NCBI RefSeq assembly: GCF_033568475.1 | Contig: NW_027331831.1 | Span: 13,082,001 to 13,146,000, forward strand | DNA length: 64,000 nt | Reading direction: 5' to 3' | DNA from: Henckelia pumila | Taxonomy: Eukaryota > Streptophyta > Magnoliopsida > Lamiales > Gesneriaceae | Part shown: piece by piece, positions 6,341 to 45,729 of the stretch | Numbering within the stretch: the first letter of the stretch is position 1 | How the letters are laid out: each line of letters starts with the position of its first letter | Position numbers and translations under genes: made by a program | Notes under the pieces: generated by a model | The model's input: the letters and a program-made list of their open reading frames with translations, nothing else | Told to the model about the DNA's origin: nothing | Databases searched by the model: none

Positions 6341-7064
6341 TTCAGTCCCTAAACCAAAAGTCAAATTAAGAATCAATACCTTATCAAAAAAAAAGTTATT
6401 TGCACTCCCTGGGCTCGCATTATTTTTATTGGATAAAATTGAGTACAAAACATTGAAAATATGATACAAATACATGATATTTGAGCACTAATTATTCAAG
6501 ATCGAGTACAAAAAAAATAAGATTTTGAGTATAAAATATAAACATCTTTATTAATTTGAACTTGCAACATATGTTTGAGTATTCAAAAATCATATATTTG
6601 TACCAGATCTAACACATTGGGTACTCCAATATCAGATATGAGTACCATATTTTCAATGCTTTGTACTGATTTTCATCCAAATAAAATAAATATGTTATTA
6701 ATATTAATATTTTCTTAGTACTCGAAAATTATATATTTGTATCAAATCTAACACATTTGATACTCAAAATCTCATATATTAGTACTGTATTTCTAATATT
6801 TTGTACTGATTGTCATCTAAAGAAAACAAATGTGTCATTATATTATATCAATATTTGTTTATAAATTTTAGTACTAAAAAATAATAAATTAGTATCATCA
6901 TTTAAAACAGTTGGTACTCAAATATCATATACTTGTATCATATTTTTCATGTTTTGTACCGAATTTCATCCATAACAAAACATATGGGCACAGGAAGTTT
7001 AAACAAAACTTTTTTTTTTTGATAGAGACTGATCACCAATTTAGGTTTAGGATTGGGGACTGAA
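6341..7064. mobile_element. non-autonomous inverted-repeat element with internal tandem repeats
   Basis: Left end TTCAGTCCCTAAACC and right end (reversed) TTCAGTCCCCAATCC are imperfect inverted repeats, each followed inward by an A-rich stretch and AAGTT. Between them are about three degenerate copies of a roughly 145-150 bp unit containing TTTGTACTGATTNTCATC. There is no coding capacity. Confidence 0.5.
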
Positions 7065-11642: not shown

Positions 11643-11730
11643 TCCGACCTGCCGGATTCGAACCAGCGACCTAAGGATTTAACTGCAAGACCACTACAGT
11701 CCTCCGCTCTACCAACTGAGCTAAGGTCGG
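11643..11730 (-). tRNA. trnY-GUA: tRNA-Tyr (anticodon GUA), intron-containing
   Basis: On the minus strand the RNA begins CCGACCTTAGCTCAGTTGG and closes with AGGTCGG plus discriminator A, so the 7 bp acceptor stem pairs perfectly. The A box (TAGCTCAGTTGGTAGAG) and B box (GGTTCGAATCC) are intact. The anticodon GTA is at 11695-11697. A 15-base intron follows one base 3' of the anticodon (about 11679-11693), as in plant nuclear tRNA-Tyr genes. The gene lies 131 bp from the divergently transcribed kinase-like gene. Confidence 0.95.
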
Positions 11731-15972: not shown

Positions 15973-15981
15973 GCTCGAATC

Positions 15982-16143
15982 GGTTTAGTACATGCCGCCC
16001 GCATGACACTATCCTGCGGGTGACGTGTAACCCCATGATTGGTCAAAAATAATGGATCCCACGTGGGGTCTTTTGATTTTAACTAATCATGAGCCGTCAC
16101 GTCACCCGCAGGGCACTACCCTGCGGGTAGCGTCGACTCAACC
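15982..16143. mobile_element. Mutator-like MITE with 9 bp target duplication
   Basis: This 162 bp imperfect palindrome has arms sharing CCTGCGGGTGACGTG and its complement, and ends GGTTTAGT / ACTCAACC. It is flanked by exact 9 bp direct repeats GCTCGAATC (15973-15981 and 16144-16152). The 9 bp duplication is the Mutator-superfamily signature. The perfect duplication suggests a recent insertion. Confidence 0.8.
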
Positions 16144-16235
16144 GCTCGAATCAAAGGGATTCTAACTAACGAGCCCCAACTATCAACCTATCAATGACCA
16201 GGTTATGATTTTTTTTGTATGTTGTATATATATTG

Positions 16236-17383: not shown

Positions 17384-17979
17384 TGTTGGTATTAGACCCA
17401 CACCAATAAATCTACCAAGCACACAATCAGCAACCAAGAACAAGAATCTATTCGAAACTAAGAAGGAACGAACAAAGCAGATAAGAACACTCGGAATTTA
17501 CTTGGTTCGGATTATCAACCAATCCTACATCCAAGGTTCTGGTATTCACCCATATGAATTCACTATAATACGATCAGTGCGCACAATCGTTTCAATCCCC
17601 CTTTTGTGTACAACACATTAATCACAGAAAAACTAGGAACAAAAAAAAAAGAAATTGGAAAACACTTTGATAGACTCTGATCTTGATGGTTTCATCTCTG
17701 TCAAGAGATATCTTCGAAGATCAATCTTGTTTCCAGATGAGCAATCTTTTGTTCTCCTTTCTATTTGGGAATACGATTTCAGAGAGATGAGAGAAATATG
17801 AACTTGTTCCTTTCAATCAAGAAGTGAGACCCAAAACCCGATCTCTCAGCTCATAAAACAGATTTACATCCCTGTAACTAACCTAATGACCAACTCCAGC
17901 CATTGGATCAATATTCAGTTAAATGATGAATCTGAGTCGTTGATTGGCAACTAATAAAAGTCAACTCAAATCTTCACAA
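17384..17979 (-). repeat. 3' LTR of the young Copia element
   Basis: The plus strand runs from TGTTGGTATTAGACC to ATCTTCACA. It is nearly identical to the partner at 22223-22819 and adjoins the polypurine tract. Confidence 0.95.
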
Positions 17980-20900
17980 ATCTCCACCTTTGACTGAATT
18001 TGTTGCACACATAATGAATCCAGCTGAGATCCCATAAACATGAAGTTACAATTACTCCATCATGTTGAGCATATCCAATGCATGATTGAGTTTGATCCCT
18101 GGTACTGTTTTTGTCAATATATCAGCCGGATTAACCATGGTATCTATTTTCTGGACTTTAACCAAGCCATTAGATACGATGTCTCTTACAAAATGCAATC
18201 TAATATCTATGTGTTTTGTCCTTTCATGAAAAACAGAATTTTTGGACAAATGTATTGCACTTTGTGAATCACAAAAGATTGTTACATCCTTCTGCTCTAA
18301 ACCCAGTTCATTGACAAAACCAATTATCCAAATACCTTCTTTTACAGCTTCAGTTAGACTGATATACTCAGCTTCGGTAGTGGATAATGCAACCACACTT
18401 TGTAAGTTTGATTTCCAGCTCACTACATTGCCTCCAACAGTAAACACATATCCTGAAATCGATCTTCTCTTGTCTAGATCAGCTGCGTAGTCAGAGTCAC
18501 AATAACCAGTGATCTCACATGTGTTTCAAGTGGATTTGGAGTACTTTAGCTTCAGCTTGGAAGTTCCCTTTAAGTATCTCAACAACCATTGTACTGCCTT
18601 CCAATGTTCTCTGCTTGGTTTGCTCATGAACCTGCTTACAAGACCCAAACCATAGGTAATGTCTGGTCGAGTTGAAACCATCATGTACATGATACTTCCT
18701 ACTGCATTTGAATACGGAACATTCTTCATATGAATAGCCTCCAACTCCTCTTGATCTTCATGTACTGCCTTCAGTTTAAAATGAGCACCAATAGGTGTGC
18801 TAACTGATTTTGCTTCTGCCATTTTGAAGAGATTAAGAACTTTATTTATGTACCTTTCTTGTGACAAAGTTAGAATTCTAAGCTTTCTGTCCCTTCTAAT
18901 CTCAACACCTAAGATTTGTTTTGCTGCACCAAGATCTTTCATTTCAAATTCAGAGTTAAGTTGATGCTTTAGATTCTGAATTTCCATAAGATCTTTACAA
19001 ACAATGAGCATATCATCTACGTAGATCAAAAGGTAGATGAAAGACTGGTTTGGCAACTTCTTGTAGTACACACAGCTGTCAAACTTTGATCTACTATATC
19101 TTTGCTGTAGCATGAAGTCATCAAAACGTTTGTACCATTGCCTCGGTGATTGCTTTAGGCCATAGAGTGATTTTTCCAGCAAACACACTTTTCCAGATTG
19201 GTCCCCAGCCTCAAAACCTTTTGGTTGAGTCATCAAAATCTTTTCTTCCAGATTTCCATGTAAGAAAGCTGTTTTTACATCTAATTGTTCAAGCTCCAAG
19301 TCATGAATTGCAGTCATTGCTAGTAAGATTCGGATAGATGAATGCTTAACCACAAGAGAGAAAACTTCATGATAATCAATCCCTTCCACCTGTGAGAATC
19401 CCTTTGCAACCAATCTTGCTTTGAATCTTGGCCCTTCAACCCCTGGAATTTCTGGTTTCCTTTTGAATATCCATTTGCAGCCTATCACTCTTTTGTCTTT
19501 AGGCTTGTCCACTAATACCCAAGTTTTGTTCTTGATTAATGACTGGAATTCTTCTTTCATAGCTCTCAACCATTTTGCACTGTCTTTGATTCTCATTGCC
19601 TCTTCATAAGTTGATGGTTCTTCTAGATCCATCAATTCTGCTACATTTAGTGCAAAGGCTGTAAATTCAGATGATGCAAATCTAGATGGTAATCTGATCT
19701 CCCTTCTGACCCTATCTCTTGCAAGCATATAATCCTCTAGATGCTGGTCATTACTAAGATCATCACTTTGTTCATCTCTGTTTGCATCCAATATATCATG
19801 AGCTTGCTGAGATATCTGAGTTCCAGCATGTTTAATTTCACAGGAATCTTCGGGTAAGACAAGATTAGCTCCACCTTCTTCCTTATTCTCATTGCTGTAA
19901 TTTAGAGGTTGTTCCCTGTCACTCAAAATCTGCTCAGCTTGTTTAGAGCTGGCTGTATCTAGCACAAGTTTGTTAGTTTTATAAAATTCAAATTCATTAA
20001 AAACTACATCTCTACTGATAACACATTTAAGTTCATCTAAAAGCCAAACCATGTAGCCTTTTATTCCAGTTGGATAACCAAGGAAAATTCCCTTCTTTGC
20101 TCTAGGTTTTAACTTACCTTGGTTAGCATGAATGTATACAACACAACCAAAAGGTCTTAAATGTTTATAATTCGGTTTTAAGTTGGACCACTTAAAATCT
20201 GGAACCATGAACTCAATAGCAGAAGAAGGTGAGAGATTGATCAGGTAGCAGGCAGTAGAAGCTGCCTCTGCCCAAAACTTAGGTGGTAGATCACTCTCAC
20301 TTAGCATGCATCTTACTTTATTCATGATAGTCCTATTCATGCGTTCTGCAACTCCATTTTGTTGTGGAGTGTATGTGCAAGTTCTATGTCTAGTGATGCC
20401 ATGCTTAGCACAATACTCATTAAACTCACGGTTGCAAAACTCCAATCCATTATCTGTTCTTAATGTCTTAATTTTCTTTCCAGATTTGTTTTCAACTAAG
20501 GTTTTCCACTCTACAAACTTATCAAAAGCTTGATCCTTAGTTTTTAGAAAATAGGCCCAAACCTTTCTAGAATAATCATCAATTAAAGAAAGAAAATATT
20601 GGCATTTGGATAGGGATTGAGGTACCTGAGAAGATCCCCAGAGGTCTGCATGTATGTACTCAAGTGGTGACAATGTTTTGTGGGTTGCTGTACTGAAACT
20701 TAGCCTATGAGTCTTGCCAAGAACACAGTTCTCACAGAAATCCAGCTCTCTGACCTGTTTGTTGTCCAGTAGACCTTGTTTACATAGCTCTTGAAGACCC
20801 TTTAGGCTCATATGACCAAGTCTCTGATGCCATAACATTGTATCATTCCCTTTTGATATAGACACATTGATTTCTGAGGATAGGGTATTTCCTTGGAGTA

Positions 20901-22222
20901 CATAAAGGCCTTGTTTCAAGATTGCCTTCATAACAACCAGTGAGCCTTTTACTACTTTCAGAATGCCTCCTTGAGCTTTGTAGCTTAGCCCCTTCTGATC
21001 CAAGGTACCTAATGAGATCAGGTTCCTCTTTAGATCAGGGATGTACCTTACATCAGATAGGATCTTCACTGATCCATCCCACATCTTTAGCTTTACTGAT
21101 CCAGCACCCTCAATTTTACATGATTCATTATTTCCCAGTAGCACATAACCTGTTTGTGTTTCTTGAAAATCTGTAAACCAGTCCCTTCTTGGAGACATGT
21201 GGTAAGTGCTTCCTGAATCTAAAATCCACTCTTCTTTTGGGTCATCAGTGGAAATGGTTAGAACCTCAGCTTCCTCATACTCTTCCAACACATTCGCTGC
21301 ATCAGTGACAGTGACTGGTTCTTGGCCTTGATTGATTTTCCTTAAAGGACAGAACCTTCGGATATGACCTTCTTTTTTGCAAGACCAGCATGTTCTCTTT
21401 GGTCTTGACTTAGACCTGGATCTCGACTTCCACCTGTTATTAGAATTCTTCCTTTCAACAGACCTACCCCTCACATTTAGACCTTCACCAGAAGGCTTTT
21501 GAAGTTTACCATTGACTTTCAAATCTAATTCCTTAGAGTATGCAGCCCCTGTTACTTCTTCAAGTGTGAGTATTTCCCTGCCATACTTCAATGTATCCCT
21601 TAGTTAATCATAGGCTCTTGGTAATGAATTCAATAAGAATATTGCCTTATCCTCTTCATCGATCTGAACATCCATGTTCTCAAGATCTGACAGTAACTTG
21701 GTGAACTCATCAAGATTCTCATCAATTGACTTATTCTCATCCATCTTGTAGCTGTAGAATTTCTGTTTTAGGTATATCCTGTTAGGCAAAGCTTTTGACA
21801 TATACAGTTGTTCCAGCTTTAGCCACATATATGCAGCTGTCTTTTCCCTAACAACCTTTCTCAGTATCTTATCGCTCAAGCTTAGAACAATAGTGTTTCT
21901 TGCTTTTTTCAATACTTCAGTCTTGTTTTCAATGGTGCTTGGAAGTTTGGATTCACCTTGTAATGCATCATCTAATCCAAGATTTCCAAGATGAGCAATC
22001 ATCTTCTCTCGCCATAGATTAAAATCGTTCTTTCCATCAAACTTCTCCACCTCAAATCTCGAAGAAGACATTGCTAGAGAATGCCCCTGGCCAGTAGACA
22101 TCTTTCTTAAAAGAATCCTCAAAGAGAGTCGAGACAGAGATCACAAGTGAATAAGAGGAATTGATGTAACAAGATCGAATCCTTGAGCCCAAGATTTTAG
22201 AACCTCAGGCTCTGATACCACT

Positions 22223-22819
22223 TGTTGGTATTAGACCTACACCAATAAATCTACCAAGCACACAATCAGCAACCAAGAACAAGAATCTATTCGAAACTAA
22301 GAAGGAACGAACAAAGCAGATAAGAACACACGGAATTTACTTGGTTCGGATTATCAACCAATCCTACATCCAAGGTTCTGGGATTCACCCATATGAATTC
22401 ACTATAATACGATCAGTGCGCACAATCGTTTCAATCCCCCTTTTGTGTACAACACATTAATCAACAGAAAAACTAGGAACAAAAAAAAAAAGAAACTGGA
22501 AAACACTTTGATAGACTCTAATCTTGATGGTTTCATCTTTGTCAAGAGATATCTTTGAAGATCAATCTTGTTTCCAGATGAGCAATCTTTTGTTCTCCTT
22601 TCTATTTGGGAATACGATTTCAGAAAGATGAGAGAAATATGAACTTGTTCCTTTCAATCAAGAAGTGAGACCCAAAACCCGATCTCTCAGCTCATAAAAC
22701 AGATTTACATCCCTGTAACTAACCTAATGACCAACTCCAACCATTGGATCAATATTCAGTTAAATGATGAATCTGAGCCGTTGATTGGCAACTAATAAAA
22801 GTCAACTCAAATCTTCACA
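22223..22819 (-). repeat. 5' LTR of the young Copia element
   Basis: Same ends as the left LTR. It lies two bases from the primer-binding site TCTGATACCA (22211-22220) and is followed by the CTTTA duplication. Confidence 0.95.
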
Positions 22820-30523: not shown

Positions 30524-31212
30524 CAATGTTCTAAAAAATGATGGGCGGTAGGCGAGTGATAACCGTCCGCCTAGACGCTTAGGCGACCGTTTAGGCAGGG
30601 CCTAGACGGTTTTTTCTTTTTAGGCTAAATATCTGATTATTCTTGTCCGATCCATCTTAATATTTCTCCAATAATTCGTCTTTATCGAATTCACCTGCCT
30701 AACTGATGTTTTTTTAGTCTAAATATCTAATTATTCTTGTTATCTTAATATTTTTCCAACAATTCCTCTTTATCGTCCTGCCTAGACGGTTTTTTCTTTT
30801 TAGGCTAAATATCTAATTATTCTTGTCCGATCCATCTTAATATTTCTCCAATAATTCGTCTTTATCGAATTCACCTGCCTAACTGATGTTTTTTTAGTCT
30901 AAATATCTAATTATTCTTGTTATCTTAATATTTCTCCAACAATTCCTCTTTATCGAATTCAAACTTGAAATACATGACATATTTCTCGTTTTAATCCGCT
31001 AAAAATTGATGGCAAATATGTCAAATAATTTTTATTTTTTTTTTAAAAAGTAAAATTAAAAATTAAAAAAATTATATATGTTAATCTAGGCGGTCGCCTA
31101 AAAGGATTTTGAGACGTCTAGGCGACGATTAGACGGTCAATAAATATAATAACTCCCACAAGCTTCAATTGTCTAAAAATCGGGACGGTTAGGCGCGCCT
31201 TTTTGAACACCG
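30524..31212. mobile_element. non-autonomous hAT element (MITE), 689 bp
   Basis: Exact 8 bp duplications AATAAAAC (30516-30523 and 31213-31220) flank inverted ends CAATGTTCTAAAAA and, reversed, CGGTGTTCAAAAAGG. These fit the hAT pattern. Subterminal GCCTAGGCG-like motifs occur at both sides. A unit of about 180 bp starting CCTAGACGGTTTTTTC (at 30601 and 30781) is tandemly duplicated with few differences. No coding capacity. Confidence 0.82.
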
Positions 31213-31689: not shown

Positions 31690-32661
31690 CTAGGACGATT
31701 CGCAGCTATCACTTACCTTTGGTTTCAGAAGATCAAGAAAAAAATAAGTCAAAATTTTCTCATAATCTGGCATCTTTGCGTATCCCGGAAAGTAATTTAC
31801 ATCAATTATGAGATACCGGTCATCAATCCTACTGTCCCTTATCATATCAAAGTTAAAAAGATTCAATCTCAAAGCTTGCCTCAAACCAGTAGCCACTTCA
31901 TTCAGAAAACTAGATGGAGGCATTTCGGTGGCTTCAATTAGCCTTGTAACACCCTCATCACTTGAAGCATGAGATGTCAAATTCGATATTTGTGAAAATG
32001 GCAATAAATTTTCAGACTTGCCCACTTTATTTAGCTCAATATCCGGCAAGGAACCTCGTTTCACACAAGTTACGTGCTTTCCAGCCACATAGACTTTGAA
32101 AATCACCCCTCCATGGTTCACAAACTCCTGCAACACAAACGAGGTGTTTAACTTCAACTCCTTCAAACCCGTTTCTCGAAAAACTAGCCACATTTGATGC
32201 GAGGCAGGGCTTCCATCTGCCACGAAAGGCTTTGCTATCACTGGGAAGTTCATGCCTTCTGATTTAACACAATCAAATACCGATTCATGACTTTCCACAA
32301 ACACCTGCTTCGGAATCCCAATTGAGATCTTATGACTTATAATCAGCTCTTGTACGACTTGAAGCATGGAAACCCGACTGCGAATCCGCTCGATCGCATC
32401 AGGATAATCAATAATGATGAGTTGGGGGCTTTGCGAACGGAATTCTAGGAGTTGGCGGGTCCATTCGGGGCCAGTTAACTTGTGGATGAGGCAATCAAAA
32501 GGGCCTTGCTCAATCAAAGATTTATCGAGGTGGATTTGAACTAGGTCGATTCCTGCTTGCTCGGCAGTGTGAACAAGGGAGGGTTGAATGAAACTCTGCA
32601 CTTTCTTGGGTGCGAGGGCATATCCTACGCGGTATCTTCTTACATCTTTCTCGGAAGACAT
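31690..32661 (-). CDS. ITPK1: inositol-tetrakisphosphate 1-kinase (ITPK1-type ATP-grasp kinase)
   Basis: It phosphorylates inositol polyphosphates (Ins(1,3,4)P3 5/6-kinase and Ins(3,4,5,6)P4 1-kinase activities, and in plants also InsP6), feeding phytate and phosphate signalling in the cytosol and nucleus. The single coding exon gives 323 residues, normal for plant ITPK1. Seen: the N-terminal VGYALAPKKVQSF signature; IDYPDAIERIRSR; ATP-grasp strands FPVIAKPFVADGS and LQEFVNHGGVIFKVYVAG; and the metal-binding end LFNFDMIRD...IIDVNYFPGYAKMP. A 5'UTR intron is supported on the minus strand by a donor AGAG/GTACGG at 32943 and an acceptor TGCTTCAG at 32677, so the first exon is about 32944-33090. 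The gene is convergent with TOZ. Confidence 0.95.
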   Translation of the reverse strand: MSSEKDVRRYRVGYALAPKKVQSFIQPSLVHTAEQAGIDLVQIHLDKSLIEQGPFDCLIHKLTGPEWTRQLLEFRSQSPQLIIIDYPDAIERIRSRVSMLQVVQELIISHKISIGIPKQVFVESHESVFDCVKSEGMNFPVIAKPFVADGSPASHQMWLVFRETGLKELKLNTSFVLQEFVNHGGVIFKVYVAGKHVTCVKRGSLPDIELNKVGKSENLLPFSQISNLTSHASSDEGVTRLIEATEMPPSSFLNEVATGLRQALRLNLFNFDMIRDSRIDDRYLIIDVNYFPGYAKMPDYEKILTYFFLDLLKPKVSDSCESS

Positions 32662-32676
32662 AGTAACTCAAACTAT

Positions 32677-33230: not shown

Positions 33231-33390
33231 GAGTTACTTTCAAGTGCCCACTTATCATGCCCACTATCATGCCCATCAATGATGTGACACTATTCTATTG
33301 GACCACATTTTTATCACATCCAATAAAATAGTGCCACATCATTGATGGACATGGTAATGGGCATGATAGGTGAGTACTTGAAAGAAACTC
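33231..33390. mobile_element. MITE, palindromic
   Basis: The ends GAGTTACTTTCAAGT and ACTTGAAAGAAACTC are inverted copies. The arms share TATCATGCCCA and CATCAATGATGTG. It contains no gene. Confidence 0.7.
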
Positions 33391-33916
33391 AGGTCTTATA
33401 TCTAATAAATATATATAGTGGGTCTTTTTTGATAGCTCATATGTCTTAGTATATCTATATTTGTAATACGATTTGAATCGATTTATATTTCAATATATAT
33501 ATATATATATATTTATTTATTTATATTTGTAATATGATTTGACTCGATTCACATGATATTTTTAATATAAGTATTTTTCATAAATCAATCAGGTTGGAGA
33601 TCTGACTCATAATATTGACCACGAAACTATTTCATAGAATATTTTGTATAAAAATTATTACTTTTATGAGACATTTTTTAATATAAATGACTTATGTTTA
33701 ATAATATATAAGCAGAGCATGACACACGACATGACATGCGTACGTTAGAAAAATTTGATAATGAATTACTTTAAAAAAAAAATTAAAATGATAGTAACTA
33801 AAATTTGAAATTGAAATGCTAAAAGCAAAAACTTATATGTGAAGAAAAACTTATATGTGAAGCAAAAACTTTAGCTGTTAAATATCATTATTTAATATAT
33901 ATATATATATATATAT

Positions 33917-34038
33917 GAGTTCTTTTATGGTGCCCAACAACTATGTCCAACTCCGTGTCCATCATGTATAAGTCAACTCACCAATTGTACATGGTGGGCA
34001 CGAAGCTGGGCATAATTGTTGGGCACCATAAAAGAACT
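33917..34038. mobile_element. MITE inserted in a (TA)n tract
   Basis: A palindrome begins GAGTTCTTTTATGGTGCCC and ends GGGCACCATAAAAGAACT, with (TA)n directly on both sides. It shares TACATGGTGGGCAC with the copy at 34801, so the two are relatives. Confidence 0.75.
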
Positions 34039-34142
34039 ATATATATATATATACATATATATAATCTACAATCTACATTGTCCATCTAATCTAATCTGAT
34101 CAATATAAAAACATGAATAAGATCTTGAATTATTTAGTTACT

Positions 34143-34265: not shown

Positions 34266-34800
34266 ACTAAAAAATATATATTCAAAATGAAAAATATTCT
34301 CAATCGTAAATATTAATTTACTTGAATTAAAAAATTTAGTAGCAATTGACTTCACTTTATATTTGGAATTTTCTCTAATTATACAATAATATAAACAAAA
34401 ATACCTAATATTTAAAAAATATATTTGACAAATAAAAATTTTAAATATTGTTTCTAAACTAAAAATGGTTTACTTTATGCAAACAATTTACTTACAAAGT
34501 ATATTTTTAGAAAAAAAAATCACGGAGTAAATTATTAATTGTATTTCAAAATATTTCCAAGAAATTAAATTAATTTTTCCAAAAAAGCTTGAGAAACTCT
34601 ATAACCCGATAAATATATAGTGAATCGTTTTGGAAACGTAATTAAGTATACTTATAAAAGGGGCAAATTAGTCTTGTAAAAATATGTAATAATTAAAAGA
34701 GGATAGTTTTGTAACAAAACACATTAAATGTCAAAATTGTAGTGTGAATATCAATTTTTGGAGTGTAAATATCATCATATATATATATATATATATATAT

Positions 34801-34921
34801 GAGTTTTGCTATACTGCCCACCAATCGTGCCAATCTCTGTGCCCACCATGTGCAATAGTTGAGTATTTTATACATGGTGGGCACAAAAATTGACACGGTT
34901 GGTGGACATCATAACAAAACT
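34801..34921. mobile_element. MITE inserted in a (TA)n tract
   Basis: The ends GAGTTTTGCTATACTGCCC and, reversed, GTTTTGTTATGATGTCC are inverted copies. (TA)n lies on both sides (34780-34800 and 34922-34943, the latter running into TATATG repeats to about 34978). Related to the copy at 33917. Confidence 0.75.
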
Positions 34922-34938
34922 ATATATATATATATATA

Positions 34939-34971
<33 letters not shown>

Positions 34972-35374: not shown

Positions 35375-35686
35375 GGGAAAATTGCAAATTTAGTCATCTA
35401 TGTTTGTCACTTTGTGGTTTTGGTCCTCTATGTTTTTACATTTCAGTTTAGTCCTGCATGTTCTGATTTTTTGCAATTTCGGTCATTTTTATTCGAAAAT
35501 GCTTATGTGGCACTGTACACGTCAGCTCCACATCAGCACTGAATTGATTCTACGTCAGCGCCACGTCGGAAAAAAGACTAAAATTGCCAAAAAAATAAAG
35601 ATAGCGGACTAAAACTGAAATCTGAAATTATAAAGGACTGAAATCGCAAAGTGACAAACATATAGGATCGAAAAAACAATTTTTTC
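35375..35686. mobile_element. Mutator-like MITE with 9 bp target duplication
   Basis: A 312 bp inverted-repeat element with left end GGGAAAATTG and right end CAATTTTTTC. Inner arms share TATGTTTGTCACTTTG and CACGTCAGC-type motifs. Exact 9 bp duplications TATATTTAA lie at 35366-35374 and 35687-35695. Non-coding. Confidence 0.75.
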
Positions 35687-36072
35687 TATATTTAAAAAAG
35701 AAAATATTGGTTCTAAGTAACCTTTTTTATTAGTTATATAATGGAAAAAATCTATGACTAAAGTAAAGTGAGAGAAAAGATGCAAATAGATAACAAAGTT
35801 ATGATAAAATATCATTTATAACATATTATTGGAAAGATAATTAAGTGGATAGATAAATAAAGTGGTTTATTTATTCAAAATAATAATAATAAAATACTTT
35901 ATTTTTATAACGAATGAGTTTTTTTTTTTTTTTTTTTGTATAAATATACAAGAAAAATAAGTATATTATATTTCAATTTTAAAAGTAAACACACACACAA
36001 TATATTTGCACAAAAAATTATGAGTCATTGGTTAAAAAAATAAAATAAATTATGAATCTTGTGTAGAGAGAA

Positions 36073-36130
36073 GGGTTTTTATTAAATGTAATTTAAAAAA
36101 ACATTTTAATTGCACAAATAATGCATGGTG
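36073..36130. repeat. left terminal inverted repeat of the MULE
   Basis: Pairs with 45403-45460 with three mismatches. The outer end is GGGTTTTTATT. Confidence 0.88.
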
Positions 36131-36159
36131 GGGGGTGAATCAAAAATACTTTAAAACGC

Positions 36160-36400
36160 TAACTTGAAGAGCGGACGCTGCATTATTTTAATGGCAGCGT
36201 CCGTTCTTCAAAGAAGCGAACGCTGCCACAGAGGCAGTGTCCGCTTGTGTCAGCAGCGGATGCTGCAATTTGCAGCGTCCGCTGCTGACAGTAGCGGACG
36301 CTGCCTATGTGGCAGCGTCCCATATGCATACAATGCATGCCCTAGTATATTTTATTATTATAATATCAGCGTCCGCTAAGGCCAATTGCGAACGTTGATT
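36160..36400. repeat. left subterminal hairpin cluster of the MULE
   Basis: Repeated inverted modules of GCAGCGTCCGCT and AGCGGACGCTGC, at about 36169-36215, 36225-36315 and up to about 36395, form several stem-loops. Matching modules lie at 45262-45365 near the other end. In MULEs such regions may bind transposase (inference). Confidence 0.75.
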
Positions 36401-36813
36401 ATTCACCATCCGCCTTCCTCTCCTGCGGACGTGATTTTTAGAGACATACGAATAATTAAATTATCGAGCACGCATAAAATCCCCACAATAATATACAACC
36501 TCCCACAATAATATACAACCTTCCGACAAACACTGAACTCACTTTTCTTTTTACTATTGAACATCATGCTTCTGACAAGATTCCCACACAACTTTTGACC
36601 ACATTAAATAGCGTGTTTAAGCCTTACAAAATTTGAAATTCAATCCTTCAATTATTCTATATAACTAGAAACAATTTGTTGAATCTCAGTGTCTCTCACT
36701 CTCTTTTACTTGAAGAAGTTCTTCACAATTTCTGAAAAATATTGTTTTCGTTCTTCTTTCCTCCTTCCTCCTTCTGTCTTTGTAATATTTTTTCCTGAAA
36801 TTTCATCTTCGGA

Positions 36814-39393
36814 ATGGATAACATTGATGTGCTTCTATATTTTGGTGGACATGTTAGTGTTGAGAATGAGTTGGTTGAATATAGTATCCCGTATATTAGA
36901 CCGATTCGAGTATTGAGATCAATTTCTTTGTTCGAGTTGGTTGAATATGTGCATAGAATATTGGTCATTGATCCAACGTATTTTAATCTGAAGCTGTCGA
37001 CGAAATACTCATTTATGGAGAAATCAATATGGCATGAAATTCCAGTCGACCTTGTTGATGCTGACGCTCTGGAGTTTGTAATGCAATGCCCAAATATAAA
37101 TGTATTGCATTTGTACGTTGAAGCAAATCAAATTGATCAGGATGAAGAATCATATATTCCACATGTTACAGAAGGATTGAGCAATATGCAGTTTGACCGT
37201 GAAGGCGGTCCGTGGGATCAACATATCACTGGTCCTTTTGAACATGTTCCTCCATGCTGGACAAATACGGGTCTGAGTTGGGATCAAAACGTCGGTGCAA
37301 CAAATTTGTATTCAAACAACCAGAATTTTGCTCAACACGATGATGTTCCTAGAATTGATGATGGAGATGTTCCTAGAAGTGCTAGTGATACTGAACCAGA
37401 GATGTCATATGGGAAGTCTGGAGAAGATGACAACGACGCTGATGATTTGAATGATGATGAACGTGTGAACCCACATGAAAATATCGATGAAGGGACGTCA
37501 TCTCGTCCACCACCTCGCCAAACATTACAGAGGCAAGTCGTACCATTTATCTCCACTGATTCTGAGATGCCCTCATTTTTCAATAAATACTTTGGAGAAA
37601 AGACTCCGAATTCCATCGGTGTACCTATCGGGGCACGAGCAAGTTATTACAATCCGGAAAGAGGAGAACTTGGTGTACACATGTTATTTAAAGATAAGAA
37701 TGATCTCATTGCTTCTGTGAAAGATTATTCAGTCAGAATTTCCAGGCGTGAGTATCGTGTAGTCGATAGCACACGCATTCTGTGGAAGGTACAGTGTAGA
37801 AATGATTCTTCTACCGCCCGATGTCGTTGGTGTCTTCGAGCTTCTTTCAAAGAGAAAACCGGCTACTAGAAAATAACAAGATATGGCGGTCCTCACACGT
37901 GTATATCTACCAACGTGGGCATAGATCATCATAACCTGAATAGCGATATGGTCGCACAGACGTTGTTGGATATTGTACGTTGTGATCCTTCGTACGAGAT
38001 TAAATATATCATGGAGAGCGTGAAGGATAAATACGGATACCAAATCTCGTATACGAAGGCGTGGCGAAGTCTAAAACGCGCAGTGGAAATTGTTTATGGG
38101 ACTTGGGAGAGTTCTGTGCAACTGCTTCCGAAATATACGCGTGCTCTGTGCAAATATAATCCCGGAACAGTTGTTGAGTGGAAGCATCTTAGATCGAACA
38201 ACGAATCAATAAAAACATTGAACTATGTTTTTTGGGCATTCAGGCCTTCTATAGATGGATTTCGCCACTGTCGAAAAATCATCAGCGTTGACGGCACACA
38301 TTTGTATACAAAATATAAGCACAAAATGCTGATCACAGTCACTCTGGATGCGAACAATCAGGTGTTGCCGCTGGCATTTGCAATCGTGGATGAAGAGACG
38401 TCGGATTCCTGGAAATGGTACTTGGAAAATGTTGGTCAGTATGTTGTTTGTGGTGAAAGTGGAATATGCCTAATTTCTGATAGGCATAAGGGTATTGTTC
38501 GAGCAGCTGAGGATCTCCACTATTTTAAACCTCCGCATGGTGTGCATCGTTTTTGTTTGAGACATGTGTGCTCAAATTTTAATGCGAGATTCAAAGATGT
38601 GCATTTGAAAGATTTATGTTGGGAGGCGGGCAAACAACATCAAGTCTGTAAGTTCGACGCAACAATGGAGGCCATCAGAAATAAAAATATTTTAGCATAC
38701 AGGTACTTGGCTGGAATCTCAAAGGAGAAATGGAGTATGGCTCATGATGGAGGTTGGCGTCGTGGGGTGATGACGACAAACATGTCTGAATGTTTGAACA
38801 ATATGTTAAACGGAGCTCGTAGACTCCCTATATCTGCGATAGTGCACTTGACTCTTTTAAGATGCGTACAATACTTCATTGAACGTGTGGCAAAGGGTCA
38901 ACGCATGGTTCAGAAAAATCAGCTGTGGTCGGACTATGCATGTCGCAAATATGAAGAATGGGCAAGAAAATCAAGCGAACATCGTGTTGTTAAATATGAT
39001 GTACGGACTAAAACTGCTTCAGTTGCGACCAGGGGCAGACCAAGTCGCGGCCAACATATACAAGTGGTGAGGTTATCAACGAGTGATTGTTCATGTGGTA
39101 AATGGACAATTTTTGAAATCCCATGTTCTCACGCTATTTGCACTGCGAAATACCATTCGTTAGATCCGACAACCCTATTTCAGTCATGGTACAACATATC
39201 GAACTACCTCGCGGCGTATGAAGGTAGATTTGAACCTCTTGCCGATGAACGCTATTGGGATCCTCCTACCTTTGAGCTGCATCACAACCCGGTTAGACGT
39301 GAAAGAAAAAGAGCTGGTAGGGATACAACAACTCGAGTGAGGAATGAGATGGACAGACCGATGGTCAGGGAGAGACAACGACGGGCAAAATAA
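36814..39393 (+). pseudogene. MuDR-type MULE transposase with one in-frame stop
   Basis: The frame spans 860 codons and is open except for one TAG at 37867-37869, where relatives have Trp (GYWKITRY context). Parts in order: a MuDR N-terminal region (FGGHVSVENELVEY); an acidic middle with many Asp/Glu; the MuDR DNA-binding zinc region (WKVQCRN...CRWCLRASF) just before the stop; and the MULE DDE domain with SVDGTHL (first Asp, codon at 38290), ISDRHKGI (second Asp) and NMSECLNNML (Glu). A SWIM zinc finger (CSCGKWTIFEIPCSH) and a basic tail (RERKRAGRD, RERQRRAK) follow. The TAG could be a TGG-to-TAG transition. Apart from that stop all key residues are present, so decay is recent. No intron is needed. 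Confidence 0.88.
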
Positions 39394-39589
39394 TTGGTAA
39401 ACATTATATTTAATTTATCGCTTACATTATTATGATATGTGTATTTTGGAATTTTGAAATTAATTTTCATATATTTTTTTTCCAGGAACATCAGATATGA
39501 AGATTGTTGTATCGCGTGATATTAATATTATAATAATATTTTTCGTTCGTGTTTTCATAATAAATGTGTACCTTGTTTTGTTTGTATAG

Positions 39590-41056
39590 TTTTCATGTAT
39601 GAGTTTAAATAATAAATATTAAATTTATTACTACTAAATTATATGTTATTAAACGATATAAATCTTAAAGTGTAGATAAATGAGTTTAAATAAAATAATA
39701 GTTGTATGCATTTTATTGTATTTGTATATTTGTTTTTTTTTAAATAAACAATATATTATAAAAATGATATATAATTTCAAATAATAAATATTAAATTTAT
39801 TACTACTAAATTATATGTTATTAAACGATATAAATCTTAAAGTGTAGATGAATGAGTTTAAATAAAATAATAGATGTATGCATGTTATTGTATTTGTATA
39901 TTTGTTTTTTTTTAAATAAACAATATATTATAAAAATGATATATAATTTCAAATTATAAGTATTAAATTTATTACTACTAAATTATATGTTATTAAACGA
40001 TATAAATCTTAAAGTGTAGATAAATAAGTTTAAATAAAATAATAGATGTATGCATTTTATTGTATTTGTATATTTGTTTTTTTTTAAATAAACAATATAT
40101 TATAAAAATGATATATAATTTCAAATAATAAATATTAAATTTATTACTACTAAATTATATGTTATTAAACGATATAAATCTTAAAGTGTAGATAAATGAG
40201 TTTAAATAAAATAATAGATGTATGCATGTTATTGTATTTGTATATTTGTTTTTTTTAAAATAAACAATATATTATAAAAATGATATATAATTTCAAATTA
40301 TAAGTATTAAATTTATTACTACTAAATTATATGTTATTAAACGATATAAATTTTAAAGTGTAGATAAATGAGTTTAAATAAAATAATAGATGTATGCATG
40401 TTATTGTATTTGTATATTTGTTTTTTTTTTAAATAAACAATATATTATAAAAATGATATATAATTTCAAATTATAAGTATTAAATTTATTACTACTAAAT
40501 TATATGTTATTAAACGATATAAATCTTAAAGTGTAGATAAATGAGTTTAAATAAAATAATAAATGTATGCATTTTATTGTATTTGTATATTTGTTTTTTT
40601 TTTAAATAAACAATATATTATAAAAATGATATATAATTTCAAATAATAAATATTAAATTTATTACTACTAAATTATATGTTATTAAACGATATAAATCTT
40701 AAAGTGGAGATAAATGAGTTTAAATAAAATAATAGATGTATGCATTTTATTGTATTTGTATATTTGTTTTTTTTTAAATAAACAATATATTATAAAAATG
40801 ATATATAATTTCAAATAATAAATATTAAATTTATTACTACTAAATTATATGTTATTAAACGATATAAATCTTAAAGTGTAGATAAATGAGTTTAAATAAA
40901 ATAATAGATGTATGCATTTTATTGTATTTGTATATTTGTTTTTTTTTAAATAAACAATAAATTATAAAAATGATATATAATTTCAAATAATAAGTATTAA
41001 ATTTATTACCAATAAATTATATGTTATTAAACAATATAAATCTTAAAGTGTAGATA
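39590..41056. repeat. AT-rich tandem array, about 8 copies of a 170-175 bp unit
   Basis: Each unit contains AAATCTTAAAGTGTAGAT followed by GAGTTTAAATAAAATAAT and ATGTTATTAAACGATATAA. Copies recur near 39661, 39832, 40006, 40180, 40352, 40525, 40698, 40869 and 41037 (the last is partial). Copies are nearly identical. The array fills the space between the convergent transposase and PMD genes, and its last copy touches the 3' end of the PMD gene. Confidence 0.92.
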
Positions 41057-41075
41057 AATCACATTAACAAATATA

Positions 41076-43150
41076 TCACGATAGGTGGTTACAATTACAA
41101 TTACATAAATGACCATCTGTTCCACAACCACGTGGCCTACGTCTACGCGAACCTCTACGCGGTACAAAACCTTGAGGATTATTTTGGACCACATCGTCAT
41201 TGTCCTCACTGCTATGATTTTGTTCATTTGAATAACCTGTAAAAATAACTGGTGAAACAACATTTCTTTGAGGTGCCGACGTGTTAGGAAAACCAGGTGG
41301 CTGATCGCTGATCAATTCGGTAATACTTTGGATATGGCTCTGAAATGGCGTCCGATAATCCTCGTCATCATATGCACCAGATGGCCCCGTGTTATCAAAA
41401 ACACCAGATGGCCCTGCATTTTCAAAACCACCAGAAGGCCCTGCACCGTCTTGCCAACCAGATGACCCTGGAACATATCCTAAAGGTGACTGATAGAGAT
41501 CAATAGGAGGCGTACCGAAATGTTGTGGAATATCATGTGGTACAGGAGCAAACAAATTCTGGGGATATGGTCGAAAACCAATCCCGCTGACTGTGGGAGA
41601 AATAGTGCGAACAGTTATGCGCTCATACCATCGAAAGTAGTCATCATCTGTCTGCCTAGATCTTCCATGCAATTGACCTTGGACAACATAATTCAACCTT
41701 CTGTTCCAAATATTAATTGCATTTTCATGATATTCCCTCCAGTCTGTGTTGCGATGACCTGATCTGTTGATGTTGTGGAGGTCATCGTTGTCAACTGCAG
41801 GTCTTGGAATAGGTTTGACGCATTTCAAATTGCCTTAACACTCGATTCGGACGATGCATCTCCACAATTTCAAAGCAAATCAAAGGACAAACGCATCGCC
41901 AAATATTATTGTCGTATGAATCCATTATTATTCTGACATCTGGATCGTTTCTGTCGTACACTATCCAGTTAAACTACAAAATAAAAACTAAAAAAAAATT
42001 ACTTAAAATTTTCTATAAACAAGTTCATTGTTGCAGTGCTTATATATTTTTCATAGTATACCTCATCATGATTCATACGATCAAATGAGTCTCTTATAAT
42101 TCGAAGAGAGTGTGTCGGTGCATGAGTATAACTAAAAACATTGTTCCACCTACAATAAAAAAATGATTAAATATCGAGTAAATTAATCAGAGTTCATGTT
42201 ATGACAATAATTTTTTTACCGAGCACCGTAGGGAGAAAATGGCATAATATCATCAGCAGGATTCGGGGCCACAAAATGAGATAAGCCAGTTCGATCAGGA
42301 TTAACACATTTAATCCTGCTCCATGCCCATACCTGTCATGAGTATAAAATATAATTAAATAAATATTAATTTAATCTCATTTAATCATTAAAAATTATAC
42401 CTGCAAAATATATAGAGGTCCGGCTATTTTAGATTTTCCTATACGCGTTGCATTGCACAACTCACGATATAGGAACGCTAAAACTGCACCTCCCCAGCTG
42501 TAAGATTTTATTCGATCAATGTTCCGAAGCAGTTGTAAAAAAATCAATCTAGCCGATCCTCCTTGATAATCTGGTAGCATTATTCCTCCGATAATCATCA
42601 ATGCTACACACCGACTATATTTCACAACATCAACCTCGGAACTATTATCATCAATGTATGTGGAGGTGCAGTGTTCGTATAAAGAGGTCATCGACAAGTG
42701 ACCGCCTTTGAAATGTGTCTCTAATGGCGTATATCCCAATAAATTTAAACATATGTGTTGTCATTCTCCCACTTTATGCGACGCATCTATACCAGATATA
42801 ACCTCACCATGAATTGGTAAACCCCAAATAACTGAAATATCCTGCAACGTGATAGTCGCCTCACCACATCTAAAATGAAATATGTGGGTTTCACGTCGCC
42901 ATCGTTCAACCAGAGCAGTGATCAAATGATTATCATAAACACGATATCCACACTGCAAAACACCGAAAAATCCCATATGATGTAAAAATGCTTTAACACG
43001 GCTATGTAACCCATTCTCCGTATATAATTTCCAAATCAAGTTGTCCGATCGTTTCGCTCGAATAATTTCATCAATATTTTCCGAACAAACTACTGATGAT
43101 ATATGTGATGCCTGCAAATGCAACACGCTCGAATCTTGTACTGTTGCCAT
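41076..43150 (-). pseudogene. Plant Mobile Domain (PMD, MAIN/MAIL1-like) gene inside the MULE, 4 exons
   Basis: Exons on the minus strand: 43150-42401, 42332-42220, 42149-42062 and 41973-41076, with GT-AG borders and agreeing phases. PMD hallmarks, in order: WRRETHIFHFRCGEATITL, LQDISVIWGLPIHGE, then LLGYTPLE, VWAWSRIKCVNP, WNNVFSYTHAP and HRPNRVLRQFEMRQT. The C-terminal tail has GPSG repeats (three GPSG units near 41.4 kb) and an Arg-rich, Cys-rich end. Two lesions are visible: a TGA at 42761-42763 where PMD proteins have Trp (VGE-W-QHIC context), and one extra base near 41811 that shifts the frame between MRQT and IPRPAV. Host PMD proteins MAIN and MAIL1 act in silencing and meristem maintenance. 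The role of transposon-borne copies is unknown. Confidence 0.85.
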
Positions 43151-43169
43151 TCTGAAAAAAAATGACAAT

Positions 43170-45240
43170 CATTAATCAATAAGTTAACTAATTATAACAA
43201 TCAATTATACTTATAATAAATACACTAAAAAATAATACACATCACGATCGAATAATAATCTTCATGCTATTTGGAAATAAAATATTAAATATGAATTACA
43301 TTAATTATTTTATTTGTTTCAAATAAAAATAAAAACAATAAAAATAAAATTAATAATAATAATAATAACAAAAGATTACTAAAAATCATTTCAATCATCT
43401 TTGTAATACTATATTTTATATAAAATAAATACGTTAATAATAATAACAAATTTGTCCTTAAACTAACTTTTCTTATATTTTAAATTTTTTATTTACTTAA
43501 AAAATTACTCAAAATGCAATATTTTTGTGTATTCATACAACTAAAATTAAATATTTTAAAAAACTATCATATTTTTTTATCATATATAAATAAAATAAAG
43601 AATATCAAAAAAATATATGTTTAATTAATCTAAAAATGTGATATTATAAATATTTTATATCACATTTTAATAAGAACACAAAATATTAAATATTTTATAT
43701 ATAAAATCTTGTTTGACATTCCAAACTTATACTTTTACATGTATTATGAAAATTATTATGTTTATATCATTAATATTTTTATTTTACATATAATCAAAAA
43801 ATAAAAATTTAACAATTCAAGTGCACATATATATTAATATTTGTTTTATATCAAATTTTACAAAATATTATAAAACTTTATATTTATGTACACTGAAATT
43901 TTGATAAATCTGTTTAAATCAAATTAAATATTAATTATATTATATAAATTTGTGTATAGTTTGATTTGGTTATATCATGATTATCTCGATTATTAATTTT
44001 AAAAACATATATTATCTTATGTCAATTCATTAAATATTCGAAAATTTGACAAATAAATAAATTAAAGTATTAGGAAGATATTTTTTATTCTTATTCTTAT
44101 TTTTATTTTTTTATAAAATATTTCAATTGTATTTGTTTATTGAAAATATTCACTTAAATTTATTATTTAGAATTCAAATTTATTATCACTTTAATTATTT
44201 TCTCTTATTGGTTCTCAAATAAAGTGATTACACAATATTATATACATTATTTAATTTATACTTTTAACTAATATTACAAATTCAAGACATATATGTAAAA
44301 AATAAAAATAAATATGATATCTACCTTTTTAATATAATATATTATTATTAAAAATATATATTATTTCTTTGATAAACAAAGTATTAATTAAGTGGTATAA
44401 ACTAATGTAATTAAGATGCGTAGAAATTTTTACTACATCAATATTTAACAATTCATTTAAATTTTAAATATTAATTCTATTGTATTAAAAAAATTAAAAT
44501 TCTTAAAAGTCATTCAATATTATGAATTAGTTGTAGGCGATTTACTATTATAAATATTTTTCTATTTTGAACATTATATATTAAAACTTTCTATAAATGG
44601 TTAATATTTTAGGTAACTTAATTTAGGAATTAATACTATTGACCAACTTAGTAAAAATAAGGGATATCAAATAAAGATTACAATTAGAGAGCGTGAATGA
44701 TTAACCAAAATATTATATAATATAAAAATATAATATAGTAACATAACCAACAAACTATAGTCAACATTTAACTTAAAAAACATGAATAATAATAGTATTA
44801 TTTAAAATATACACAAAACTTAATATTGTTATAATAATATTAAAACGTACCTCTATGTTATTTCACGTTTAATATCAAATTTACCTGCAAAAACAATATG
44901 AACAAAAATTCATATGAATAATAACACAATTTTTGATAGAATTTATTTTGCATGCAAAATTTAAAAAGAATTAAAACGATAACATTATAAAGTTACCTAA
45001 TTCAGAAAACAACGCGGAAAATATTTCAAAAAGCTTCGATGGTTGCTCAAAAAAAAAATATTTGCTTCGGTCCTTCTTCTATAAAATAAAAAAAAGAAAG
45101 CATTTAAGGAAAGAAAGGGAAGGAAAGCTTCGGTCTCCTGCAAAATAAAAATGAGAAAGCATCATAATGATCTCAAGTTCGCAGCATGCATATTTAATAG
45201 CACAATCACAATAATTTTGCATCACGGGCCAAAACGCCCG
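43170..45240. other. AT-rich MULE interior upstream of the PMD gene
   Basis: About 2 kb of very AT-rich DNA between the PMD start and the right subterminal region. It is presumably the promoter side of the PMD gene. No reading frame of note. Confidence 0.6.
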
Positions 45241-45402
45241 TGATGCAAAATAACAAAGCAGACGCTGCCAAGGCAGCGTCCACTTCTGCAAGGGACAGAC
45301 GTTGCTTTGGCAGCGTCTGCTATCTTTAACAACGGACCCTGCAATTTTAATGCAGGGTCCGCTATTGGCAGGAGCCTTTTGCAGTATTACTGCAAAAGGC
45401 CT
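45240..45402. repeat. right subterminal hairpin cluster of the MULE
   Basis: Paired modules GACGCTGCCAAGGCAGCGTC, GCAGGGTCCGCT/AACGGACCCTGC and GCCTTTTGCAGTATTACTGC form consecutive hairpins. They mirror the cluster at the left end. Confidence 0.75.
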
Positions 45403-45460
45403 CACCATGCATTATTTGTGCAATTAAAATATTTTTTTAAATTACTTATAATAAAAACCC
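45403..45460. repeat. right terminal inverted repeat of the MULE
   Basis: Begins CACCATGCATTATTTGTGC and ends AATAAAAACCC. It is the complement of 36073-36130 with three mismatches. Confidence 0.88.
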
Positions 45461-45540
45461 AGAGAATTGAGATCACATTTCCATTAATGTATCACATTGA
45501 ATATAATACACGCTTCACGTGCAAATCATATGTTTCTTAC

Positions 45541-45542
<2 letters not shown>

Positions 45543-45592
<50 letters not shown>
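45543..45592. repeat. (TA)n microsatellite
   Basis: About 24 TA units in a row, directly left of a MITE. Confidence 0.95.
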
Positions 45593-45596
<4 letters not shown>

Positions 45597-45706
45597 GTTC
45601 AGTTGTCTAACCATGTTTTTCCACTTGGTCCGCGACCACTAAAACCCACTACCGGGTTTTAGTAGTCGCGAACCAAGTGGAAAAACTTGGTTGGGCAGCT
45701 GAAAAT
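45597..45706. mobile_element. MITE beside a (TA)n tract
   Basis: The arms TCAGTTGTCTAACCATG and, reversed, TCAGCTGCCCAACCAAG, continued by TTTTTCCACTTGG, form a hairpin of about 105 bp. (TA)n lies at its left and ATATATATAG at its right. Confidence 0.7.
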
Positions 45707-45729
45707 TCCTTTATTTCTATATATATATA

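Follow-up and report, generated by a model that had tools for sequence, protein, structure and literature searches.

A probable full-length but coding-defective Mutator-like element with an antisense Plant Mobile Domain gene in Henckelia pumila

One element or several?

Transposon silencing depends on the host proteins MAIN and MAIL1, which carry a Plant Mobile Domain (PMD), and transposons themselves encode this domain. A stretch of 64,000 nucleotides from Henckelia pumila (RefSeq assembly GCF_033568475.1, contig NW_027331831.1, positions 13,082,001 to 13,146,000; 34.7% GC), which we call the window and whose own numbering is used throughout, holds a transposase gene and a PMD gene close together. 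Do the two belong to one transposon, and if so, what might the PMD protein do for it? We found a single Mutator-like element (MULE) of 9388 bp at 36073-45460, in which two terminal repeats enclose subterminal hairpins, the transposase gene, a 172-bp tandem array and the PMD gene in antisense; the two genes are convergent, and their 3' ends face each other across the array. We estimate at roughly 85% the probability that this region is one full-length, now coding-defective MULE of the plant type, with an antisense PMD gene at a mudrB-like position. With its matched ends, whole PMD gene and repeat array, the element could serve to test the role of transposon-borne PMDs, but it belongs to a kind catalogued in 2019 and by itself adds no new principle.

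Terminal and subterminal structure

The ends and flanks of the element are as follows.

36067-36072, no strand: AGAGAA left flank, possible worn target-site duplication, flush with the element end
36073-36130, plus strand: left terminal inverted repeat, 58-bp core (55/58 to the right end)
36131-36283, plus strand: degenerate inner continuation of the left terminal repeat
36160-36410, no strand: left subterminal palindromes, with 10 GCAGCGTCCGC-type sites
45216-45402, no strand: right subterminal palindromes, with 5 GCAGCGTCCGC-type sites (45258-45362)
45403-45460, minus strand: right terminal inverted repeat, 58-bp core (55/58 to the left end)
45461-45466, no strand: AGAGAA right flank, possible worn target-site duplication, flush with the element end

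The left core and the reverse complement of the right core are identical at 55 of 58 positions; the next best 58-mer, on either strand of the whole window, reaches 33 matches of 58. A 23-mer of the repeat, allowing up to three mismatches, occurs twice in the window, against a mean of 0.00 over 100 shuffles. In a blastn self-comparison the inverted similarity (36073-36283 against 45460-45257) covers about 210 bp, with 76% identity in 215 alignment columns, and the 58-bp core is therefore the best-kept portion of a longer, worn terminal repeat.

Both ends also fold strongly as DNA, with z = -15.7 for 36150-36420 and z = -13.9 for 45200-45410; in neither case was any of 200 shuffles equally stable. 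A further feature common to the two ends, in both orientations, is the motif GCAGCGTCCGC. With up to two mismatches it has 26 matches in the window where 1.85 would be expected: 10 at 36171-36376, 5 at 45258-45362, one in the PMD gene and 10 outside the element.

Another inverted repeat (45572-45729), with 76-nt arms that are 84% complementary and separated by 6 nt, follows some 110 bp after the right end. It overlaps a long TA run and looks like a foldback element or a miniature inverted-repeat transposable element.

The two genes and the array between them

Between the subterminal palindromes we distinguish the following features.

36814-39393, plus strand: transposase gene with MULE and SWIM domains (reading frame, profile matches), in-frame TAG at 37867-37869
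39607-41059, no strand: tandem array of a 172-bp unit (8.4 copies), flanked by the convergent 3' ends of the genes
41076-43150, minus strand: PMD gene (GT..AG introns, PF10536), coding exons 43150-42401, 42332-42220, 42149-42062 and 41973-41076; TGA at 42758-42760
41973-41076, minus strand: PMD coding exon 4, which starts at 41973 and holds the frame change at about 41860-41834
41375-41445, minus strand: 27-bp repeat, 2.6 copies, encoding a 9-residue repeat in the C-terminal part of the PMD protein
43151-45215, no strand: AT-rich region upstream of the PMD gene, 16.9% GC

The transposase frame opens with an ATG at 36814 and closes with a stop at 39391-39393, and the TAG is its only interruption. 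Its 3' part (507 residues) matches the MULE transposase family PF10551 at 7.6e-17, above the cut-off, and the SWIM family PF04434 at 2e-5. The element thus has, as expected of a MULE, a gene for a DDE transposase (with one stop in it) and terminal inverted repeats at both ends. Within the 3' part, the motifs VDGTHL, LISDRHKG and NMSECLNN contain DDE-type residues at 38290-38292, 38479-38481 and 38788-38790, which would form the catalytic triad in this family.

The introns of the PMD gene measure 68, 70 and 88 bp and have GT..AG ends. Its pieces tile the 347 positions of the PMD profile PF10536, at 1-62 (3e-21), 73-180 (6.8e-14), 181-295 (3.4e-21) and 296-347 (0.0039, below the cut-off when taken alone). 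When the exons are spliced and the stop is written as X, positions 1-295 match at 2.2e-69, and the gene is accordingly a member of the family by a match that runs along the profile. Besides the in-frame TGA it carries a second lesion, a frame change between about 41860 and 41834, although an unusual splice may skip the latter. In translation, the C-terminal part ends in a basic, cysteine-containing tail. The protein presumably resembles those of the MAIN type.

With an in-frame TAG in the transposase gene, and both an in-frame TGA and a frame change in the PMD gene, this copy is unlikely to be autonomous. The initial annotation, which was made from the sequence alone, had called the element near-intact, and this holds for its structure and layout but not for its coding capacity, both genes being interrupted. 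Of the transposase "with all catalytic motifs" that it reported, we recovered the DDE-type motifs, in a frame that the TAG breaks. In its other structural claims it was right: the coordinates, the 58-bp terminal repeats, the hairpins at both ends and the convergent multi-exon PMD gene are borne out by the repeat identity, the fold z scores and the GT..AG exons, and the matches to PF10551, PF04434 and PF10536 confirm a MULE with a MuDR-type transposase and an intron-bearing PMD gene. The initial annotation did not mention the three lesions, the 172-bp array or the missing 8-11 bp target-site duplication.

Searches for a second copy in the window (tblastn with two transposase parts and three PMD pieces) found none of either gene, the PMD pieces giving a single side match at E 0.36. 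Searches of PDB sequences returned chance-level rows only, with a best E of 0.28 for the transposase part and 0.78 for the first PMD piece. Single-sequence AlphaFold2 models of the 507-residue transposase part and of PMD exon 1 had a mean predicted local distance difference test score of 36.7 and 37.4, respectively, too low for use.

The array is separated from the transposase stop by 214 nt and from the PMD stop by 17 nt; its copies show 97% matches, and its GC content is 12.5%. Hexamers resembling poly(A) signals are in excess there, with 24 occurrences of AATAAA against 11.3 expected (reached by none of 200 shuffles) and 14 of TTTATT against 7.4 expected (reached by one of 200). Since tandem repetition inflates both counts, this excess only permits the array to be read as a terminator.

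How the element may have worked

If the element behaved as others of its superfamily, for which the mechanism is established, the transposase, with its DDE core and SWIM zinc finger, would bind the terminal repeats (possibly the subterminal palindromes too) and move the element by cut and paste. By analogy with maize MuDR, both genes would be transcribed inward from promoters near the ends, and the transcripts would stop in or near the AT-rich 172-bp array. The PMD protein would be an accessory factor that the element has retained. If the present copy can still move, it would need proteins from other copies to do so.

The function of the PMD protein is the most uncertain part of this mechanism. 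MAIN and MAIL1 are described as host PMD proteins that act in transposon silencing, and capture of PMD-C genes by MULEs is also described (PMC5418596); roles of these host proteins in silencing and gene expression are given in PMC5418596, PMC7156037 and PMC9899485. Among specific roles for the PMD protein of this element, we tentatively regard counteracting host silencing of the element as the likeliest. That transposon-encoded PMDs counter silencing was proposed in PMC5418596 (2017) and in PMC8616336, so the suggestion in the initial annotation that such a protein may help the element to evade or exploit silencing repeats speculation already in print. We saw no functional test of a MULE-borne PMD among the matches listed by our literature search.

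A more specific form of the anti-silencing role can be drawn from the VANC system, in which tandem repeats are the targets and the protein contains peptide repeats (PMC5735166, PMC10398659). The PMD protein would then be a self-directed anti-silencer, VANC-like but built on a different domain. It would recognize rapidly evolving repeats of the element itself, either the 172-bp array or the 15 subterminal GCAGCGTCCGC-type sites, and would lift or block host silencing there. If this were true, VANC-like systems would have evolved more than once in plant MULEs, and the MAIN/MAIL silencing proteins would be the host's side of an arms race in which both parties use this domain. We think this improbable. 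The occurrence of a tandem-repeat array together with a peptide repeat in the PMD protein, as in the VANC model, is suggestive only.

As a check on this idea, we counted two motifs. The VANC21 motif YAGTATTAY has 5 occurrences in the window, where 3.22 would be expected, a number reached by 19 of 100 shuffles and not the dense occurrence in noncoding repeats that VANDAL/VANC elements would show; this count covers the VANC21 motif only, and other VANC proteins have other motifs. Three of the five lie inside the element, which makes up about 15% of the window, a small and scattered excess, and none lies in the 172-bp array. The "DOWN" motif in the form found in the MORC1 promoter, CATGCAGTTT (PMC9899485), has no exact match in the window, and its 7 near-matches there are at chance level (7.30 expected); only one of the seven is inside the element, in coding sequence. 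Neither check gives clear support for anti-silencing.

A link between the PMD gene and DUF1985, the VANC domain, was considered and rejected. A single 119-residue piece (42401-42757) matched DUF1985 at E 0.1, below the cut-off, and the match was gone even at E 10 on a longer spliced piece; the gene therefore lacks the significant DUF1985 match expected of a VANDAL/VANC member. Among the matches listed by our literature search, no paper contained both terms.

Alternative explanations

Two other accounts of the PMD gene deserve attention. In one, it is a passenger, a host gene captured in the manner of a Pack-MULE, which has no role for the element and is decaying for that reason. The gene is intron-bearing, as a capture at the DNA level would leave it, and is broken twice; MULEs do capture host genes, and capture of genic PMD-C was inferred in PMC5418596. 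What is present, however, is the whole PMD profile and no fragment, and decay is not special to the PMD gene, because the transposase is broken too. Moreover, several plant MULE groups have a PMD gene arranged in antisense as it is here (PMC6446971 Table 1), which suggests retention. We consider a passenger doubtful.

In the other account, the PMD protein does the work of the mudrB product and assists integration or transposase function, with no part in silencing. The position and orientation of the gene are those of mudrB in MuDR, and mudrB is apparently required for integration (PMC6446971). Position alone is weak evidence, however, and the known host PMD proteins work in silencing and gene expression. 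This role too appears rather unlikely.

Returning to the region as one full-length MULE, a number of observations weigh against that reading. There is no target-site duplication of 8-11 bp, the length typical of MULEs: a search within 6 bases of the ends gave neither exact repeats of 7-8 bp nor repeats of 9-12 bp with one mismatch at most. The flanking 9-mers, TAGAGAGAA and AGAGAATTG, agree at only 1 of 9 positions, so that one end may have undergone a deletion or rearrangement. No MuDR N-terminal DNA-binding family of Pfam was detected at E 0.5, even with the stop read through. The 507-residue transposase part and the first, 129-residue PMD piece had no match in the viral_contigs collection, and the transposase part had five pattern matches in the prokaryote genome_contigs collection, none of them a relative, although no relatives were expected in either. 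Finally, nothing that we see in the sequence demonstrates an anti-silencing function.

Least probable of all is a composite of two insertions, in which nesting or deletion has joined two ends, or a PMD gene and a transposase, of different origin: the lack of a clean 8-11 bp duplication and the differences between the repeats within their first 58 bp would fit, but such a composite is unlikely given the 55/58 core, the unusual GCAGCGTCCGC-type motif family common to both ends, the absence of any other terminal repeat pair in the window and the 6-bp AGAGAA flush on both sides, which a random pair of positions would show with a frequency of 0.000535. AGAGAA may be the remnant of a target-site duplication.

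Neighbourhood of the element

The gene content of the window (PMD, copia elements, WEB-type and inositol-kinase genes) is that of a plant, and other mobile and repeated sequence is present as well. A full-length Ty1/copia retrotransposon (17384-22819) has long terminal repeats at 17384-17978 and 22223-22819 that are about 98% identical, a 5-bp duplication (CTTTA) and three open reading frames split by in-frame stops, two of which have gag or pol domains. A second copia-type stretch (328-2583) has gag, integrase and SH3 domains in three open reading frames, also split by stops. Two self-complementary sequences of about 165 bp, at 33895-34060 and 34779-34943, each match themselves at 82-84% and are 75-78% alike; further foldback-like palindromes lie at 33231-33390, 35399-35662, 15981-16144 and 6341-7064. 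A 180-bp unit is present twice at 30600-30955, with 98.9% identity over 176 bp, and a 325-residue frame for inositol 1,3,4-trisphosphate 5/6-kinase (31693-32667, 3.5e-72) lies about 0.7 kb away. An 806-residue reading frame at 51292-53709 matches WEMBL (weak chloroplast movement under blue light) at 2e-10, and a tRNA-Leu with a TAG anticodon lies on the minus strand at 11643-11730 (ARAGORN and Rfam).

Comparison with known systems

The element resembles VANDAL21 (Hiun), the Arabidopsis MULE that encodes the anti-silencing protein VANC, in having an accessory gene, noncoding tandem repeats and short peptide repeats in the accessory protein (PMC5735166, PMC10398659), the counterpart here being the 9-residue repeat at 41375-41445. 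It differs from VANDAL21 in that DUF1985 is not significant and the VANC21 motif is neither dense in it nor present in the array. Grass and Amborella MULEs in which PMD-C is fused to the transposase likewise have a PMD inside a MULE, for which an anti-silencing use has been proposed (PMC5418596); in contrast to those fusions, the PMD here is encoded by a separate, antisense, intron-bearing gene.

Maize MuDR, with mudrA and mudrB, has the same plan of two convergent genes, one for the transposase and one accessory (PMC3440606). Here, however, the accessory gene is a PMD gene, and instead of the Mu terminal repeats of about 215 bp (PMC3440606) there is a 58-bp core within about 210 bp of degenerate similarity.

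A close likeness by description is to groups in the 2019 MULE survey, whose Table 1 (PMC6446971) reports PMD in several MULE groups of flowering plants: antisense in Solanaceae_1; "PMD and/or DUF in half the members" of VANDAL; "in most, sometimes antisense" in MuDR-9_OS, Monocots and MDR; "in most, often antisense" in MUDRAVI2 (group 49); and "in antisense for most of them" in MUDR (group 50). As described there, MUDR and MUDRAVI2 have a SWIM-bearing MULE transposase, terminal repeats of tens to hundreds of bp and a PMD that is mostly or often antisense, and the element has the same arrangement, with its PMD antisense to a SWIM-bearing MULE transposase. It departs from both groups in its flanks, where their duplications are 9-10 bp when given and only the 6-bp AGAGAA is seen here, and in its internal tandem array, which Table 1 does not mention for them. 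On whether other copies link PMD with this transposase family, a point raised in the initial annotation, the literature gives an answer at the level of groups only: MUDR and MUDRAVI2 commonly carry PMD, often in antisense. With PMD listed for several of the plant MULE groups in Table 1, the pairing of transposase and PMD is an established combination, and the Henckelia element is an ordinary member of a catalogued kind.

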